From Solitalea canadensis DSM 3403 (GTDB lineage: Bacteria; Bacteroidota; Bacteroidia; Sphingobacteriales; Sphingobacteriaceae), in NCBI RefSeq assembly GCF_000242635.2, contig NC_017770.1, positions 2,864,669-2,928,668 of the forward strand: a stretch of DNA of 64,000 bases, read 5' to 3'. Numbering within the stretch: the stretch's first letter is position 1; each line of letters starts with the position of its first letter. Shown piece by piece: positions 2 to 11,293 of the stretch. The notes beneath the pieces are model-generated. The model saw nothing but the letters and a program-made list of their open reading frames with translations. It ran no database searches and was not told the origin of the DNA. The position numbers and the translations under genes are program-made.

Positions 2-337
2 GAAGGTATTGTGGTTATCCAGTCTACCTCACCGTATGTTGCACCAAAATCTTTCTGGTGTATCGATAAAACGTTACAATCGGTTGGATTAAATACAGTT
101 CCTTACCATGTATATGTTCCCTCATTTGGAGAATGGGGATACGTAATGGGCATGAAAAAGCCTTCGTACAATTTACCGGGCCAGTTTCCGGCGGGATTAA
201 AGTTTGTGAATCAGGAAAGCCTTAAACAGATGCTGTATTTTCCCGGAGACATGGCAAAGGTTCCTACAGAAATCAACAAACTGAATAATCAGGTATTAGT
301 GCATTATTTTGAAGATGAGTGGGCAAAGTTCTTATAA
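2..337 (+). CDS. Spermidine synthase (polyamine aminopropyltransferase), C-terminal part, cut by window edge
   Basis: The reading frame is open from base 2, so the gene starts left of the window; only about 111 C-terminal residues are present. The sequence shows the conserved tail of the spermidine synthase family: a beta-strand VVIQSTSPY, then APKSFWCI, and the PYHVYVPSFGEWGYV block that covers the active site. Family knowledge: these enzymes transfer aminopropyl from decarboxylated S-adenosylmethionine to putrescine. The match is to the long membrane-linked bacterial subgroup rather than short cytosolic SpeE, judged from FGEWGYVMG and from its neighbours. The stop lies 23 bp inside the next gene, so translation is probably coupled. 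The catalytic N-terminal part cannot be inspected. Confidence 0.85.
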   Translation, partial: EGIVVIQSTSPYVAPKSFWCIDKTLQSVGLNTVPYHVYVPSFGEWGYVMGMKKPSYNLPGQFPAGLKFVNQESLKQMLYFPGDMAKVPTEINKLNNQVLVHYFEDEWAKFL

Positions 338-1988
338 TAAACCTCGCAATTTGTTAAGTCAGTTAAACCGAAAAGCATTTTTATTAAGGGCCGGAATCGG
401 TTTAACCGCGGCTATTGCCGGCGGATACTTTTATAAAAAAAAACGCTCAAAAAATACCAGATATATTACAGGAAGTATGGTTGGGGCTAATGCCAAAATC
501 GGACATTTACTGCGCGACAAGCTTTCCATTCCTGAGCCATCTGTTAAAGAACAAATTGACTACCTGATTATCGGAGGTGGTATTTCGGGTCTTTCGGCTG
601 CGCGTGAGTTAAAGAAGCACGGCATCTCTAATTTCAAACTTATCGAACTGGATAAGCATATAGGTGGCAATTCTTCAAAAGGGCAAAACGATGTTTCGGC
701 TTATCCCTGGGGAGCCCATTATCTTCCGATTCCTGATCCCGAAGATGCTGAATTGATCCGTTTCTTACAAGAAATCGGAACGATTACAGGTTTTAATCCG
801 GAAGGTCTTCCTGTATTCAATGAATATCAATTATGTTTCGATCCGGAGGAGCGTTTATACATCCGTGGCCAATGGCAAGAAGGAGTCATTCCCTCCATCG
901 GAATAGATGAAAAGGAGAAACAGCAGATAGAACGCTTTTTAAAATTGATGGAAGCTTTTAGAACTGCCAAAGGGAATGATGGCAAATTTGCTTTTACGAT
1001 TCCTCTTAAAAACAGTTCTCAGGATCAACAGTTTATCCAACTCGACAAAATCAATTTTGCCACTTATTTAGATCAGGAAGACTTTACATCCCCACATTTG
1101 CGCTGGTATTTAAATTATGGGTGCAAAGACGATTATGGAAGTACAATTGAGCAGACATCTGCATGGGCTGGGATTCATTACTTCGCCGCACGAAAAGGTA
1201 AAGCGGCAAACGCAAAAAATGGCGATCTGTTAACATGGCCCGAAGGCAATGCCTGGCTGGCCGAACAATTGCGCAAACAAGTCGCTGAACACATAATTGT
1301 TAATTCGCTGGCATATCATATTGATCATAATGAAAACAATGTAACGGTAAGTGTTTTTGATCCTGTGGCCAACACGAGTAAAGTCATTGAAGCAAAAAAA
1401 ATCCTATTGGCTTGTCCCCAGTTTGTTAACCAACGTTTATTAAAAACCGTAAAAAGCAACCGGACAGCCGAATTGTACAATCACTTTAATTATGCACCAT
1501 GGATGATTGCTAACATTACTGTTAATCAATTACCGGAAGCAAAAGGAATTGGTCTTTGTTGGGATAACGTATTATTTGAAAGTGAATCGGTTGGCTATGT
1601 AAATGCCAATCACCAACATATCAACCAAAACGAAAAGAAACGCGTACTGACGTATTATTTACCCTTAACTGGTCGTGAGCCTAAAGTACAGCGTTTAGCT
1701 GCCTTTATACGCAGTTATGATGATTGGGTACAAATGGTTTGTGATGACTTAGAACGGTCGCATAAGGGCATTACAGCCTTTATTGAGTCGATTGATATAT
1801 GGATATGGGGACATGGGATGATCCGGCCTGAGCCGGGTTTTATTTGGGGTGAAGAAAGACAAAAAGCAGCCAAACCAATTAACGGACAAATCTTCTTTGC
1901 GCATACTGATCTAAGTGGCGTTTCTATTTTTGAAGAAGGATTTCATCAGGGAATAACCGCTGCACAGCAAATGATAGCTACTATATGA
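315..1988 (+). CDS. FAD-dependent oxidoreductase (amine-oxidase/desaturase-like fold), membrane-anchored
   Basis: The protein has 557 residues from the ATG at 315; a TTG at 309 is also in frame but less likely. A hydrophobic, Gly/Ala-rich segment at about 22-38 preceded by Arg/Lys suggests an N-terminal signal or anchor. The dinucleotide-binding motif DYLIIGGGISGLSAARELKK lies at about 82-101, followed by an acidic strand end (LIELD) and GGNSS, the pattern of FAD proteins of the monoamine oxidase/phytoene desaturase type. The C-terminal HTDLSGVSIFEEGFHQG block is a plausible second FAD contact. The start overlaps the spermidine synthase and the stop overlaps the next gene by ATGA, so all three appear to be one translationally coupled operon. 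A substrate related to polyamines is inference only. Confidence 0.75.
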   Translation: MSGQSSYNKPRNLLSQLNRKAFLLRAGIGLTAAIAGGYFYKKKRSKNTRYITGSMVGANAKIGHLLRDKLSIPEPSVKEQIDYLIIGGGISGLSAARELKKHGISNFKLIELDKHIGGNSSKGQNDVSAYPWGAHYLPIPDPEDAELIRFLQEIGTITGFNPEGLPVFNEYQLCFDPEERLYIRGQWQEGVIPSIGIDEKEKQQIERFLKLMEAFRTAKGNDGKFAFTIPLKNSSQDQQFIQLDKINFATYLDQEDFTSPHLRWYLNYGCKDDYGSTIEQTSAWAGIHYFAARKGKAANAKNGDLLTWPEGNAWLAEQLRKQVAEHIIVNSLAYHIDHNENNVTVSVFDPVANTSKVIEAKKILLACPQFVNQRLLKTVKSNRTAELYNHFNYAPWMIANITVNQLPEAKGIGLCWDNVLFESESVGYVNANHQHINQNEKKRVLTYYLPLTGREPKVQRLAAFIRSYDDWVQMVCDDLERSHKGITAFIESIDIWIWGHGMIRPEPGFIWGEERQKAAKPINGQIFFAHTDLSGVSIFEEGFHQGITAAQQMIATI

Positions 1989-3043
1989 GTACAATAACTA
2001 ATAAACAATCGTGGATATACTCAGCAAAGGCAGATCTGCTTTTTATCCTATCACCACCATTTGTTGCATTATTGGCTATCCTACTTTTCCCAGCTGTGTT
2101 TCAACAGGCTGGAAGTATTCCCCTGCTCTACTGGGTGTTTTTAATATTGCTGATTGATGTGGCCCATGTATACACCACCTTATATCAAACCTATTTTAAT
2201 CCACAGCGATTAAAAAAACATTATTCACTATACATGGCCATACCGGTTGTTTGCTATGTAGTCGGAGTTTTACTGCACAGTATTGATGGAATGTTATTTT
2301 GGAGGATTTTGGCCTATCTGGCAGTTTTTCACTTTATCAGGCAGCAATATGGTTTCATGCGACTTTATTCACGTACTGAAAACCAGTCGCCTGATTGGTG
2401 TAAAACTATTGACGTAATTAGTATTTATACAGCAACACTTTATCCTTTAGTGTACTGGCATTTATCAGATGATCGTAATTTTAATTGGTTTATTGATGGA
2501 GAGTTTTTTCAATTTCATTCCGATCTTTTATTGAGTTTAGTCACGGTCTTGTACTTTCTTGTCCTATGCATTTACCTTATCAAGGAAACGTTCATCATTC
2601 TTAAGTATAAACAGTTTAACATTCCCCGCAACCTTATCATCGGTGGCACTTTTTTGTCATGGTATTTCGGAATTGTTTATTTCAATGGAGATATGGCCTT
2701 TACAACGCTAAATGTCGTTTCGCATGGCATTCCGTATATGTCCTTGGTTTGGTTTATGCAAAAGAAAGAACGTCCCGATTATAAAGGTTCATTATTAATC
2801 CATTTGAAGCGTTCTTATGGCATTCTCATCTTTCTGGGAATAATCGTCGTTCTGGCCTACCTTGAAGAGGGTCTATGGGACGGATTTATATGGAAAGAGC
2901 ATCAACCCTTTTTTGGAATTTTCAAGCAGCTTCCGACTATTACAAGCAAGGAAACGCTGGCATTGATTGTTCCGTTGCTTTCCTTACCCCAATCAACTCA
3001 TTATGTTTTAGATGGATTTATTTGGAAGAAAAGTCATGCATAA
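1985..3043 (+). CDS. Polytopic membrane protein with conserved-looking membrane histidines, polyamine-cluster partner
   Basis: The protein has 352 residues and about eight to ten hydrophobic segments; no signal peptide is separable. It is joined to the FAD oxidoreductase by an ATGA stop-start overlap. Histidines occur within or at the edge of membrane segments in distinctive contexts: DVAHVYTTLYQTY (H61), HFIRQQYGF (H116), VVSHGIPY (H247) and QSTHYVLDGFIWK (H339). Such a set could bind a metal or haem, as in membrane di-iron oxidases, but this is inference. I do not recognise a named family. Context suggests it works with the FAD protein, perhaps as a redox or oxygenase partner. Confidence 0.65.
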   Translation: MSTITNKQSWIYSAKADLLFILSPPFVALLAILLFPAVFQQAGSIPLLYWVFLILLIDVAHVYTTLYQTYFNPQRLKKHYSLYMAIPVVCYVVGVLLHSIDGMLFWRILAYLAVFHFIRQQYGFMRLYSRTENQSPDWCKTIDVISIYTATLYPLVYWHLSDDRNFNWFIDGEFFQFHSDLLLSLVTVLYFLVLCIYLIKETFIILKYKQFNIPRNLIIGGTFLSWYFGIVYFNGDMAFTTLNVVSHGIPYMSLVWFMQKKERPDYKGSLLIHLKRSYGILIFLGIIVVLAYLEEGLWDGFIWKEHQPFFGIFKQLPTITSKETLALIVPLLSLPQSTHYVLDGFIWKKSHA

Positions 3044-3126: not shown

Positions 3127-3507
3127 ATGAAAAAGCTATTATTATTTATTGCTGCTTTGGGATTAGGAACAGCAGTAAGTTTTGCTCAAACCGCTCCTGC
3201 AACAACTGTAAAAAAAGATACTAAAACGGTAACTGCTTCAGCTAAAAAAACAACATCAGCAACAAAAACAGCAGCTAAAGCTACTACCACAAAAGCCACC
3301 GAGACAACCACTAAAACTGCTGCCAAAGCGCAAAAAGATACAAAATCTACTGTTTCGGCAACCGCTCCCGTAAAAAAAGACGGTACTCCAGACATGCGCT
3401 ACAAAACTAATCAGGAAGCTGCAAAAACTGCAGGACCTAAAAAGAAAGATGGCACTCCTGATATGCGCTATAAAACCAATCAGCCTGCGCCTAAAAAAGC
3501 AAACTAA
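3127..3507 (+). CDS. Exported Lys/Ala/Thr-rich low-complexity protein with two 14-residue repeats
   Basis: The protein has 126 residues. A clear signal peptide (MKKLLLFIAALGLGTAVSFA, cut before Q) is followed by about 70 residues made almost only of Ala, Lys and Thr. The C-terminus carries two near-identical copies of KKDGTPDMRYKTNQ separated by a short linker. The mature protein is strongly basic and probably disordered in the periplasm or outside the cell. The composition resembles histone-H1-like or cell-wall-binding tails, but a function cannot be assigned. An antisense Val/Ala-rich open frame covering the same DNA is a composition artefact. The gene is followed by a strong terminator. 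Confidence 0.75.
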   Translation: MKKLLLFIAALGLGTAVSFAQTAPATTVKKDTKTVTASAKKTTSATKTAAKATTTKATETTTKTAAKAQKDTKSTVSATAPVKKDGTPDMRYKTNQEAAKTAGPKKKDGTPDMRYKTNQPAPKKAN

Positions 3508-7121: not shown

Positions 7122-9743
7122 TTACACCAACGCCGCCAAACTCTCTTCTAACGCTTTGATTTTAGATTCGGCGTCGGCTTTTTTATTACGTTCGTTTTGG
7201 ATGATCTCAGGTTTTGCATTCTGAACAAAACGCTCATTACTTAATTTCGCATCAACTGACTTTAAGAAACCTTTCAGGTATTCTAAATCTTTATTGATTC
7301 GTTCACGTTCAGCTTCAACATCAATATTTGATCCCAGGTCTACAAAAAATTCATCTGTACCAACATGGAATCCTGTTCCAGCTGCCTTTTCGGTTACAAA
7401 ATCAATTGATGAGGTATTGGCTAATTTACTGATCAAGCCGGTAAACAATTGATAAGTAATTTCACTATTGATCTTAATTGCTAATGGTAATGCCTCTTTC
7501 GGACTAATTTGTTTTGAGTTGCGGATATTACGCATCTGTGAAATCACATTCAAAACAGCATCCATTGATTTTAACACTTTAGCATCAAAAGGAACCGATT
7601 GTGGATAGTGCGATACAATGATACAATCCATTTCCGAACGCTCTGCGATTTCATGCCATAGTTCTTCTGATAAGAATGGCATAAACGGATGAACCAACTT
7701 CAATAAACGCTCAAAAATATCGATGGTTGCATCATAGGTTTCTCTATCGATAGGTTCACCATAAACAGGCTTAATCATTTCGAGATACCACGCACAGAAA
7801 TCATCCCAAACCAATTTATACGTTGCCATCAATGCATCCGACAAACGGAAAGCATTAAAGTGCTCTTCAATCTCTGCTAATGAAGCATTGAATTTATGCT
7901 CAAACCAGGCAATTGCTATCTCATTATTATCGTCGCCACCTTCTTTAATTTCCCAACCTTTTACTAATCGGAATGCGTTCCAGATTTTGTTAGCAAAGTT
8001 TCTTCCCTGCTCACAGTAGGCCTCATCAAACATCAGGTCGTTACCTGCCGGAGAAGAAAGTAACATCCCCACACGTACGCCATCGGCACCATATTTTTCA
8101 ATGAGTTCTAACGGATCTGGCGAGTTACCTAATGATTTGGACATTTTTCGGCCCAATTTATCGCGAACAATTCCGGTTAAGTACACATTTTTAAATGGCA
8201 CTTCTTTACGAAACTCATTACCCGCCATGATCATACGAGCTACCCAGAAAAACAAGATTTCCGGTGCTGTAACCAAATCATTTGTTGGATAATAATATTG
8301 AAGGTCGGCATTACCTTTACTTTCGGAATTTCCGAATACAGAAGGATCAAAAACCGAAATTGGCCATAACCATGACGAGAACCAGGTATCAACTACATCT
8401 TCATCTTGTACTACATTAGAAAATGCCTGATTAGCGGCTTTAAACTCAGCTTCTGCTTCTCCTTTTGTTTTAGCAACTACGTATTCCCCATTCTCATTAT
8501 ACCAAGCCGGGATTTGTTGTCCCCACCAAAGCTGACGTGAAATACACCAATCTTTTACATTCTCCATCCAGTGACGGTAGGTATTGATGAATTTATCAGG
8601 AATTAACTGAACTTCACCATTTAAAACTACTTCCAAAGCTGGTTGAGAAAGCTCACTCATTTTACAGAACCATTGTAATGAAAGTTTAGGTTCAATAACG
8701 GCATCGGTACGTTCCGAAAAACCTACCTGGCTTTTATATTCTTCAACTTTCTCTAGTTGTTCTGCTTCTTCTAATAATTTGGCGATCTTTTTACGAGCAA
8801 TGAAACGATCTTCACCTACTAAAATTTCGGCTTTTTCGTTCAATGTTCCATCATCGTTCAAAATATCAATAACAGGCAATTTATGTTTAATACCTAACTC
8901 GTAATCATTTAAGTCGTGAGCCGGAGTAACTTTTAAACATCCTGTACCAAATTCCATATCCACATATTCATCCAAAATGATCGGAATCTCACGATTAATC
9001 AATGGAATGAATACTTTTTTACCATGAAGATGAGTAAAACGCTCATCATTAGGGTTGATACAAATTGCCGTATCTGCCATAATGGTTTCAGGACGAGTGG
9101 TTGCGATCATTACAAAACCATCTTCACCTGAAACTTTATACTTGATATAATATAATTTCTGGTTTACTTCTTTACGAATTACTTCTTCATCCGAAACCGC
9201 CGTTTTTCCTTGCGGATCCCAGTTTACCATACGCACGCCACGATAGATCCATCCTTTTTTATACAAATGAATGAATGTATCAATAACAGCCTCAGAAAGA
9301 GGAGCATCCATGGTAAAGCTAGTGCGATCCCAATCGCAGGAAGCTCCAAGTTTTTTCAACTGGTCAAGAATAATACCTCCGTATTTTTCTTTCCACTCCC
9401 AAGCGTATTTCAGAAAATCTTCGCGACTAAGGTCTTTTTTGTTGATGCCTTTTTCTTTTAACATAGCAACTACTTTGGCCTCAGTAGCAATAGAAGCGTG
9501 ATCGGTACCGGGCACCCAGCATGCATTCTTATTTTGCATACGAGCACGGCGGACCAGCACATCCTGGATGGTGTTGTTTAACATGTGTCCCATGTGTAAT
9601 ACGCCAGTAACGTTTGGTGGCGGAATTACAACTGTGTAGGGTTCACGTTCATCTGGAACTGACTTAAAAAACTTTTTTTCCAGCCAATAGCTGTACCATT
9701 TGTCTTCTGTCTCGCGCGGGTTGTATGTTTTTGAAATACTCAT
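7122..9743 (-). CDS. valS: Valine--tRNA ligase
   Basis: The protein has 873 residues, normal for the family. It begins with the class I signature [13 protein letters not shown] at about 41-53. The editing (CP1) domain contains [15 protein letters not shown] and [30 protein letters not shown] and the KMSKS loop ([14 protein letters not shown], about 530-540) complete the catalytic core. The anticodon-binding domain ([21 protein letters not shown]) and a C-terminal coiled-coil arm follow. The enzyme charges tRNA-Val in the cytoplasm and hydrolyses mischarged Thr-tRNA. The leader contains a GGATTACACCGAT-type repeat directly upstream of the start codon; no T-box or other known riboswitch is visible. 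Confidence 0.98.
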
Positions 9744-9746
9744 TTT

Positions 9747-9790
9747 GGGATTACACCGATTTATTTAATATACTGATTACCACCGATTCT
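9747..9790. repeat. GGATTACACCGAT-type word repeat in the valS leader
   Basis: GGGATTACACCGATTTAT is followed by CTGATTACCACCGATT. This is the same word family as the long hairpin at 62603-62709. It starts 4 bp upstream of the valS start codon, so it lies within the promoter or leader. Confidence 0.6.
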
Positions 9791-9876
9791 AAAATGATAC
9801 AAAATCATTTAGTTCAGGTTTAATCAGAAGTTTGCAAAAATAGGAAATTTAGGGCAGAAATACACCTCATCCCCGG

Positions 9877-9898
9877 CCCTTCTCCTTGAGGAGAAGGG
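9877..9898. terminator. Hairpin CCCTTCTCC-TTGA-GGAGAAGGG
   Basis: A perfect 9-bp stem with a TTGA loop lies between the GNAT gene stop and the valS start, both on the minus strand. There is no T-run, so it may be a REP-like palindrome rather than a canonical terminator. Confidence 0.55.
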
Positions 9899-9919
9899 AG
9901 CGCTCGGATCGCTGTTATG

Positions 9920-10459
9920 TTACTTCAACTCTTTAAAACGTTCTGAGGTTAGCTCCCAACGATTTACTGGCTGCTCAAAATTCAGGAATCCGGGAGTGGT
10001 TATGTATTCATTTATAAACCTGAATCCTACTTTGCTTAGTGTTTTATTAGGTGCCAGATTAAGGGCATAAGGTTCACAATAGAGCGTCTTTAGCTTTAGA
10101 TTTTTAAAGAAATAGGGCAAAGATTTTTTTACCAACTCCACTCCTGCACCATGTTTTCGGTCATGGTTATTCCATAAGTGCAAATGCATGAATGCTTCTT
10201 CTCCAAAAATGATCTTATTTACATTGGAATGGCCGACAGGCTTACCGTCGATCTGCCAAATCACACAGTAAGCTTTCTTTTCCTCATAGCTTTGACTCAG
10301 CTGTTCTGAAAGCATTCCTCTCCATTGTTCTTTAGTTGGTAGTTTGCTAAGCTCCACACCCATTCCTTTTAAAAAAGCTTCATCAGCTGTTGTCCAGTAG
10401 TTTATAATTAATTCAATATCATCGGAGCTTAATTCCCTAACCGATAAGATGTTTTCCAT
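9920..10459 (-). CDS. GNAT-family N-acetyltransferase
   Basis: The protein has 179 residues. The fold is read from YCVIWQIDGKPVGHSNVNKI (strands 2-4), the acetyl-CoA region MHLHLWNNHDRKHGAGVELVKKSL, where the usual RGxGxG loop is replaced by RKHGAG, and LKTLYCEPYALNLAPNKTLSKVGF, which is the N-terminal-amine or small-molecule acceptor half. The arrangement is that of the RimJ/RimL-like subgroup. The substrate cannot be inferred. The start at 10459 is preceded by a TAnnTTTG-like box (TAACTTCG). It lies upstream of valS on the same strand, but a hairpin separates the two. Confidence 0.75.
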   Translation of the reverse strand: MENILSVRELSSDDIELIINYWTTADEAFLKGMGVELSKLPTKEQWRGMLSEQLSQSYEEKKAYCVIWQIDGKPVGHSNVNKIIFGEEAFMHLHLWNNHDRKHGAGVELVKKSLPYFFKNLKLKTLYCEPYALNLAPNKTLSKVGFRFINEYITTPGFLNFEQPVNRWELTSERFKELK

Positions 10460-10493
10460 ATGAATAAAATTTATACGGTCGAAGTTAGTTTTT

Positions 10494-10568
10494 TTACCAC
10501 GAAGACGCTACGGTACAAAGCTTTTCATCCATAATTCTTTGCGTCTTGAAGCCTTAGCGGTTTTAAAA
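10494..10568. repeat. ACCACGAAGACGC / TTTGCGTCTTGAAG word repeat
   Basis: The left arm (ACCACGAAGACGCTACGGTA, then CAAAG) and the right arm (TTCTTTGCGTCTTGAAGCC) are an imperfect inverted pair between the divergent GNAT and mnmD genes. The same word family recurs at 21851-21998. Confidence 0.6.
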
Positions 10569-10600
10569 ATGCTTAAATTCGCAGTCCAAACAGAAATTAC

Positions 10601-11293
10601 ATGCAATTCAGCAACGTTCAATTATTAAAAACCGCGGATGGAAGTTTTACCCTTTTGCAACAAGATCTGATGCAGACTTACCATTCTGTAAACGGGGCGT
10701 TGCAAGAAGCTAAGCATGTATTTTTAGAAACGGGCCTCAAGCATTTCAGGATGCAAAGTCAAGTGCAAAAACTAAGCATTCTGGAAGTTGGTTTTGGTAC
10801 CGGTTTAAATTTTTTAGTTACAGCAGATTATTGTTCAAAAGAAAACATCCAATTGAATTATGTTGGGGTTGAAGCCTTTCCGGTTAAACCAGAAGTAATG
10901 CAAAAAATTGAGTTTGAAAATGTAATAAGTGCTGAAATATGGAAGAATTTCCTTACCAATTACCACTTACTCATCGAAGGCAACAACATTGAAATCAACA
11001 AAAATACCAGTCTCAGGATGGAGCAAAAAACGATACTTTCAACTTCCCTACCTCCCATCTTCGATATAATTTATTATGATGCCTTCGCTCCCGCCATTCA
11101 ACCCGAAATGTGGTCGCAGGAAACGATACAGCATGTGGTTTCCTTTCTAAAACCGGGAGGTATATTTGTTACCTATAGCATTACCGGAAACTTAAAACGT
11201 ATTTTAAAAGGATTAGGGTTTACTATCGAAAAACCTAAAGGAGCTGCAGGAAAACGAGAAATGTTACGAGCAACCTTAAAGCAAGAAGCCTAA
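10601..11293 (+). CDS. mnmD: tRNA (5-methylaminomethyl-2-thiouridine) methyltransferase MnmD-like
   Basis: The protein has 230 residues. It corresponds to the methyltransferase half of MnmC (DUF752) without the FAD oxidase half. Motif LSILEVGFGTGLNFLVTADY is the SAM-binding loop, NYVGVEAFPVKP follows at strand 2, and IYYDAFAPAIQPEMW is the family's catalytic-region signature. KPGGIFVTYSITGNLKR and PKGAAGKREMLRA complete the fold. The reaction is SAM-dependent methylation of nm5s2U34 to mnm5s2U34 in tRNA. Stand-alone MnmD proteins are known in bacteria lacking fused MnmC, and Bacteroidota fit this. The next gene converges with an 18-bp gap. Confidence 0.88.
   Translation: MQFSNVQLLKTADGSFTLLQQDLMQTYHSVNGALQEAKHVFLETGLKHFRMQSQVQKLSILEVGFGTGLNFLVTADYCSKENIQLNYVGVEAFPVKPEVMQKIEFENVISAEIWKNFLTNYHLLIEGNNIEINKNTSLRMEQKTILSTSLPPIFDIIYYDAFAPAIQPEMWSQETIQHVVSFLKPGGIFVTYSITGNLKRILKGLGFTIEKPKGAAGKREMLRATLKQEA

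Follow-up and report, generated by a model that had tools for sequence, protein, structure and literature searches.

Layout of the operon

The window analysed here, a stretch of 64,000 nucleotides from Solitalea canadensis DSM 3403 (G000:C1:2864669-2928668 of the whole genome), opens with three plus-strand genes which form the downstream half of a longer operon and code for a membrane-fused aminopropyltransferase (SpeE), an oxidoreductase dependent on flavin adenine dinucleotide (FAD) and a polytopic membrane protein with four invariant histidines. The window start falls inside speE, the part within the window being its C-terminal end (window 2..337, 111 amino acids, an open frame of the SpeE type PRK03612/NF002956 that crosses the window edge), while the full gene, starting upstream, was located in a longer stretch including the upstream region (L002:7492-9006, plus strand) and codes for 504 amino acids. 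The second gene (window 315..1988; in L002 from 8984 to 10657, same strand) begins with the ATG at 315, ends with the stop codon closing at 1988 and codes for an FAD-dependent oxidoreductase of the amine-oxidase type with 557 amino acids, whose first part (window 315..449) was identified as a signal or anchor region of the twin-arginine translocation (Tat) type. The third gene (window 1985..3043; L002:10654-11712, same strand) codes for the polytopic membrane protein of 352 amino acids, in which H61, H116, H247 and H339 were found where a first-pass annotation of this DNA had placed them. The overlaps noted there were likewise confirmed in the window sequence, amounting to 23 base pairs (bp) between speE and the flavoenzyme gene (window 315-337) and to 4 bp between the latter and the membrane-protein gene.

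Upstream of the window, and on the same strand as the rest of the operon, genes for SpeD (L002:4496-4852), a DUF4178 protein (L002:4852-6153) and a DUF350 protein (L002:6340-6564) were identified, and the interval between DUF350 and speE contains a gene for a TPR protein whose start resembles a signal (L002:6577-7464). As tblastn gave no such TPR gene in this position in the other loci searched, it was left out of the conserved gene set. The conserved operon is composed of speD, the DUF4178 and DUF350 genes, membrane-fused speE, the gene of the putatively exported FAD oxidoreductase and that of the four-histidine membrane protein. The first-pass annotation had considered the last three genes as a unit, and these are indeed linked, but the conserved set comprises six genes and the first member of the trio is only the tail of the 504-residue SpeE.

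Conservation and distribution

Close relatives were represented by 22 full-length membrane-protein sequences, that of the window included, and the gene order SpeD, DUF4178, DUF350, SpeE, flavoenzyme, membrane protein is kept in 21 of the 22 loci. DUF350 was detected in 20 of the 21 order-keeping loci, with none being found by tblastn in L012, and a few loci possess longer intergenic gaps, e.g., before the flavoenzyme gene in L047 and L052. The overlap between speE and the flavoenzyme gene recurs in 18 of 21 loci, measuring 23 bp in ten (with an alternative start possible in one of them, L015), 26 bp in six and 11 bp in two, and that between the flavoenzyme and membrane-protein genes recurs in 19 of 22, the start codons for these counts having been picked by a script. 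Because of this recurrence, overlaps and order are not a matter of chance, and the tight linkage that had been claimed for the trio is borne out. Conservation beyond close relatives had been set beforehand as a test, which the trio survived, as it was found to be spread over five family labels of the class (f1, f19, f22, f26 and f29).

A draw of 395 genomes across the phylum revealed a nested distribution: membrane-fused SpeE is present in 29 (E up to 1e-60), the flavoenzyme in 15, all of them among the 29 (E up to 1e-20), and the full-length close membrane protein in 11, all of them among the 15. Altogether 23 genomes of this draw match the membrane protein, comprising the 11 close full-length sequences, 11 distant ones and a fragment in genome G414. 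Within 321 genomes of the family, 32 encode the membrane protein in full length (33 with the G414 fragment, which was dropped; the match in G688 has one in-frame stop) and 45 the flavoenzyme (that of G621 being split into two pieces and containing a stop). In each of the 32 pairs the two genes share a strand, the profile matches being -2 to 79 bp apart. Fisher values for this co-occurrence are inflated by the relatedness of the species.

The G414 fragment (L056) carries in-frame stops and the same phylum draw gave no flavoenzyme or SpeE match for this genome, which suggests that the operon was lost. A further remnant of the membrane-protein gene was found in Pedobacter panaciterrae (L016), where an intact copy resides on another contig (L014). 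A genome of the same genus as the window carries the DUF4178-DUF350 gene pair twice in tandem (L058:2853-6314). Directly after the operon, a small Ala/Thr/Lys-rich protein with a signal-like start and no Pfam family is encoded (window 3127-3507), its gene being followed by a terminator-like hairpin (L002:12207-12234).

The four-histidine membrane protein

All 33 sequences compared, the 22 close ones and the 11 distant relatives, carry the four histidines, whose conservation in homologues was the second test set beforehand and is thereby borne out. D58, Q120, Y251, Y340, D343 and W347 are likewise invariant across the 33, H159 is not, and H306 already varies in the close group; a separate alignment of 32 rows identified the four histidines together with D58, Q120, Y251 and D343 as invariant, too. 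By alignments and structure model, these residues form four plus-strand-encoded motifs located in membrane helices, namely D58-x2-H61 (window 2156..2167), H116-x3-Q120 (window 2330..2344), H247-x3-Y251 (window 2723..2737) and, in the last helix, H339-Y-x2-D343-x2-I-W (window 2999..3025). The AlphaFold model based on 32 rows reached a mean predicted local distance difference test score (pLDDT) of 91.2 and a predicted template modelling score (pTM) of 0.88, and places the four motifs on four separate helices; around H116 and H339 the hydropathy profile by itself gives a weak signal.

Assignment to a known family was attempted at the levels of profile, fold and literature, the latter search covering open-licence papers, and none of these searches yielded a name for the family. 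Neither Pfam nor NCBIfam matched the window protein at E up to 1, four of five relatives have no Pfam match at E up to 10, NCBIfam returned one chance-level match (E 0.2) for four relatives, and the membrane-protein profile, when run against the PDB sequences, found no match at E up to 10. Three weak Pfam matches of relative L064 (best DUF3487, E 0.011) were rejected as chance, lying below the cut-offs and having no counterpart in the other four relatives. A first structure model based on 13 rows (pLDDT 74.2) had no convincing PDB match, and neither had the 32-row model in PDB or BFVD, where the best Foldseek E was 0.49 and the best VIA-align Z 7.4, with a root-mean-square deviation of 5.1 over 170 residues versus a rhodopsin. 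The weak rhodopsin and UbiA-type fold matches were rejected, as they fall within the range of common helical arrangements. Kinship with the beta-carotene dioxygenases BCD/Blh (PF15461) was also rejected, the hhalign probability being at most 1.4% with three of the seven BCD rows fragments, and so was kinship with the haem A synthase CtaA (PF02628), for which it was at most 0.41% in an alignment retaining 18 of 20 rows, mostly fragments; both families are absent from the Pfam scans. The last gene's product may represent an undescribed family whose four histidines possibly hold a metal.

The 11 distant relatives belong to other family labels of the phylum, have 390-415 amino acids (one is cut by a contig end) and share 19-22% identity (ten aligned), and close and distant groups align over their whole length with an hhalign probability of 99.9%. 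No other gene of the operon was found by tblastn in the 11 stretches that code for them, neighbours being listed for seven, and the phylum draw that yielded them lists none of their genomes for SpeE or for the flavoenzyme. The existence of such relatives outside the operon argues for a putative chemistry of the membrane protein that extends beyond an aminopropyl pathway, and for a recruitment of the protein to that pathway. One of them (L062) lies near an OsmC-like gene (Pfam), with similar frames in L063 and L066, and another (L069) adjoins an LptF/LptG permease gene (Pfam), with a similar frame in L070. Viral relatives of the membrane protein were not found, and plasmid searches with the window protein and with the distant L062 protein yielded no relative.

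The flavoenzyme

The flavoenzyme passes the Pfam Amino_oxidase family PF01593 with 32.3 bits versus a gathering cut-off of 19.8 (residues 92-375), and its best NCBIfam profile is PigB (NF053556), with 58.5 bits versus a cut-off of 850 and the match reaching the C-terminus. Among the 60 solved matches shown, the best are amine and polyamine oxidases, aligned over the FAD-binding start. The N-termini of 29 flavoenzymes carry a twin RR in 22 cases and RK or KR in seven, and a strict lipobox pattern was found in 14 of the 29, RR and lipobox occurring in many relatives; the window protein has RK and is without lipobox. From this signal motif, the enzyme is predicted to be exported and hence periplasmic, and the envelope setting assumed in the first-pass annotation is supported.

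Relatives of the flavoenzyme are also encoded in seven plasmid records (Novosphingobium, Burkholderia and Gemmatirosa), three stretches of which were inspected. The annotated order in Novosphingobium sp. ES2-1 is SPFH, DUF4178, DUF4178, hypothetical, DUF350, SpeE, flavoenzyme, SpeD; in Gemmatirosa, DUF4178 and SpeE frames are found just before the flavoenzyme, and in Burkholderia arboris a DUF4178 frame lies nearby, this stretch being, by count, among those with a SpeE profile match. None of the three gave a membrane-protein match. The flavoenzyme hence looks like a wider-spread partner of this SpeE type as compared to the membrane protein.

SpeE and SpeD

SpeE reaches 684.5 bits versus the NF002956 (PRK03612) cut-off of 472 over residues 6-502. 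Q239, D264, Y268, D347, D366, D369 and Q400, among others, are kept in 41 of 41 sequences; they align with residues of solved aminopropyltransferases, and we take them to be positions lining the active site. An acceptor substrate other than putrescine was reportedly proposed by Li in 2019; no paper found by the literature search names an acceptor of the membrane-fused enzymes, and none relevant to aminopropylated lipids was among those found. Passages of PMC12803844, citing Li 2019, state that bacterial fusions of a membrane protein and an aminopropyltransferase were experimentally found to be uninvolved in spermidine and spermine biosynthesis, a statement which concerns bacterial fusions in general and may not cover this exact subfamily. 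Because of this report, the SpeE of this operon is probably not polyamine-forming, and its earlier description as such is probably wrong. Seven hydrophobic segments were identified in SpeE, and the positive-inside pattern of 41 sequences would put the catalytic domain outside, a topology which is unreliable insofar as positive charge is not clearly scarce in the residues following the last segment (mean 2.1 K/R versus 3.2 D/E).

SpeD matches Pfam PF02675 (84 bits, cut-off 25) and comes just under the cut-off of TIGR03330, S-adenosylmethionine (AdoMet) decarboxylase class 1b (73.9 bits versus 75.65). Its pyruvoyl serine S65 and the processing histidine H70 are kept in 35 of 36 rows; the 36th (L131) is misaligned and was set aside, leaving 35 usable rows. 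The catalytic cysteine of the T. maritima AdoMet decarboxylase is C83 in the numbering of a literature passage. Instead of the catalytic cysteine, the operon of the window has a serine at SpeD position 85, as do 15 of the 35 usable rows with the window included.

Suggested reaction sequence and rival explanations

The reading which we tentatively prefer, at somewhat less than even odds, is that of an envelope aminopropylation followed by oxidative tailoring, with the last protein as a candidate metalloenzyme. The suggested sequence assumes that initially the SpeD-type decarboxylase would provide decarboxylated AdoMet. Next, the membrane-fused aminopropyltransferase, whose active-site residues are kept, would put the aminopropyl group on a membrane-borne amine other than putrescine, as may be deduced from the reports on bacterial fusions. 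The aminopropyl product would then be oxidised in the periplasm by the flavoenzyme, family match and signal motif being consistent with such a role, with the substrate and export presumed. Finally, the membrane protein, with its four histidines and D58 and D343 on four helices, would serve as a membrane metalloenzyme or as a metal-bearing redox partner of the flavoenzyme; conservation, gene linkage and helical model underlie this assignment, whereas metal and reaction are conjectural. The protein, probably with a metal, would thereby act on the same product or accept electrons. A bolder version, which we consider rather improbable, treats the four-histidine protein as the first member of a new class of polytopic membrane metalloenzymes, encoded by stand-alone genes in some lineages and recruited elsewhere to finish an envelope aminopropyl compound after its oxidation by the exported flavoenzyme, so that an undescribed aminopropyl-derived membrane component would be made.

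Several observations weigh against the preferred sequence. The serine at the SpeD catalytic-cysteine position was found in 14 of the 21 loci with the membrane protein (window included), as compared to one of seven loci with the flavoenzyme only and none of seven with the core only, and because of this the aminopropyl donor is uncertain. By our reading of charges, the four histidines reside in the cytoplasmic half of their helices, while the flavoenzyme is predicted to be periplasmic. A metagenome-assembled contig of 8.1 kilobases (L013) has the flavoenzyme and membrane-protein genes paired, and no SpeE match was found on it, nor in the 1.1 kilobases upstream. The flavoenzyme is encoded without the membrane protein in 13 of its 45 family genomes (all in one genus label, g16), in four of its 15 genomes of the phylum draw and in all three megaplasmid stretches examined, and hence does not need the membrane protein. 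In a tree of 29 flavoenzymes, a well-supported branch separates those of the 22 membrane-protein loci, joined by L117 and L118, two loci without the membrane protein, from the rest; these two belong to the long branches of the tree and the membrane-protein label needs three changes, which a single gain with later losses might explain.

The operon may also be explained by ordinary polyamine metabolism, in which SpeE would make spermidine, the exported flavoenzyme would be a polyamine oxidase limiting or using exported polyamine, and the membrane protein would be a polyamine permease. That SpeE is the single PF01564 protein of the genome, that it clears the cut-off of the profile named 'polyamine aminopropyltransferase' with its catalytic residues kept, and that the flavoenzyme passes the amine-oxidase cut-off would all fit this idea, which we nevertheless judge unlikely given the statement on bacterial fusions in PMC12803844. 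Furthermore, the genome carries a homologue of the deoxyhypusine-synthase type, compatible with homospermidine being formed by another route (for NspC there is only a weak match under the cut-off), and the distant membrane-protein relatives, which lie outside the SpeE genome list, keep the same histidines.

Alternatively, the four-histidine protein was considered as a b-type haem or quinone-linked electron carrier for the exported flavoenzyme instead of a substrate-modifying enzyme. Its one-sided dependence on the flavoenzyme in the 321 family genomes and the location of the histidines on separate membrane helices of the model would be in line with this, as would the electron acceptor that an exported flavoenzyme presumably requires. 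We regard a carrier function as doubtful all the same, since D58 and D343 share the invariance of the histidines, the latter are placed (again by reading of charges) towards the cytoplasmic half, at a distance from the flavoenzyme, the flavoenzyme also occurs without the membrane protein, and a partial alignment gave no profile similarity to CtaA. A membrane-stress sensing module, in which aminopropylation would tune the membrane state as in PspA-linked operons and the two extra proteins would adjust or sense without a defined product, is quite unlikely, as these two look catalytic or metal-bearing rather than sensor-like and a Pfam scan confined to seven operon proteins gave no match to PspA, CesT/Tir or band-7, even though passages of PMC11237479 tie membrane-fused SpeE, DUF350 and DUF4178 to PspA and CesT/Tir proteins and an SPFH gene is part of the flavoenzyme-bearing Novosphingobium operon.

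The operon adds two enzyme-like partners to the membrane-fused aminopropyltransferases, whose products could be sought by lipid and metabolite profiling. Genera with and without the last gene offer a matched comparison, and in the membrane-protein family the conserved histidines and aspartates form a clearly delimited set, whose members may be mutated one at a time.

Comparison with known systems

BCD/Blh and CtaA are polytopic membrane proteins, too, with four functional histidines each, and the present protein has no profile similarity to either. PigB and HapB, described in passages of PMC7065143 as FAD-dependent dihydropyrrole oxidases of which PigB is membrane-associated, share with the flavoenzyme the character of an FAD-dependent oxidase of the amine-oxidase type, PigB being its best NCBIfam profile. 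The flavoenzyme differs from them in scoring far below the PigB cut-off, in its Tat-type N-terminus and in residing in an aminopropyltransferase operon instead of a prodigiosin cluster.

Closest in gene content are the PspA-linked SpeE operons (group 2 of PMC11237479). Since operons uniting membrane-fused SpeE, DUF350 and DUF4178 are already described in passages of that paper, the core of the present operon is known, and to speak of an undescribed pathway, as the first-pass annotation did, is too strong for it. The four-histidine membrane protein is not found in the running text considered from that paper, figures and tables lying outside this scope, nor did the search of open-licence papers return the combination of this protein with the core. 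As compared to the operons of group 2, with which it shares membrane-fused SpeE, DUF350 and DUF4178 but, by the Pfam scan of seven of its proteins, not the CesT/Tir-PspA pair, the present operon additionally carries the putatively exported flavoenzyme and the four-histidine membrane protein.

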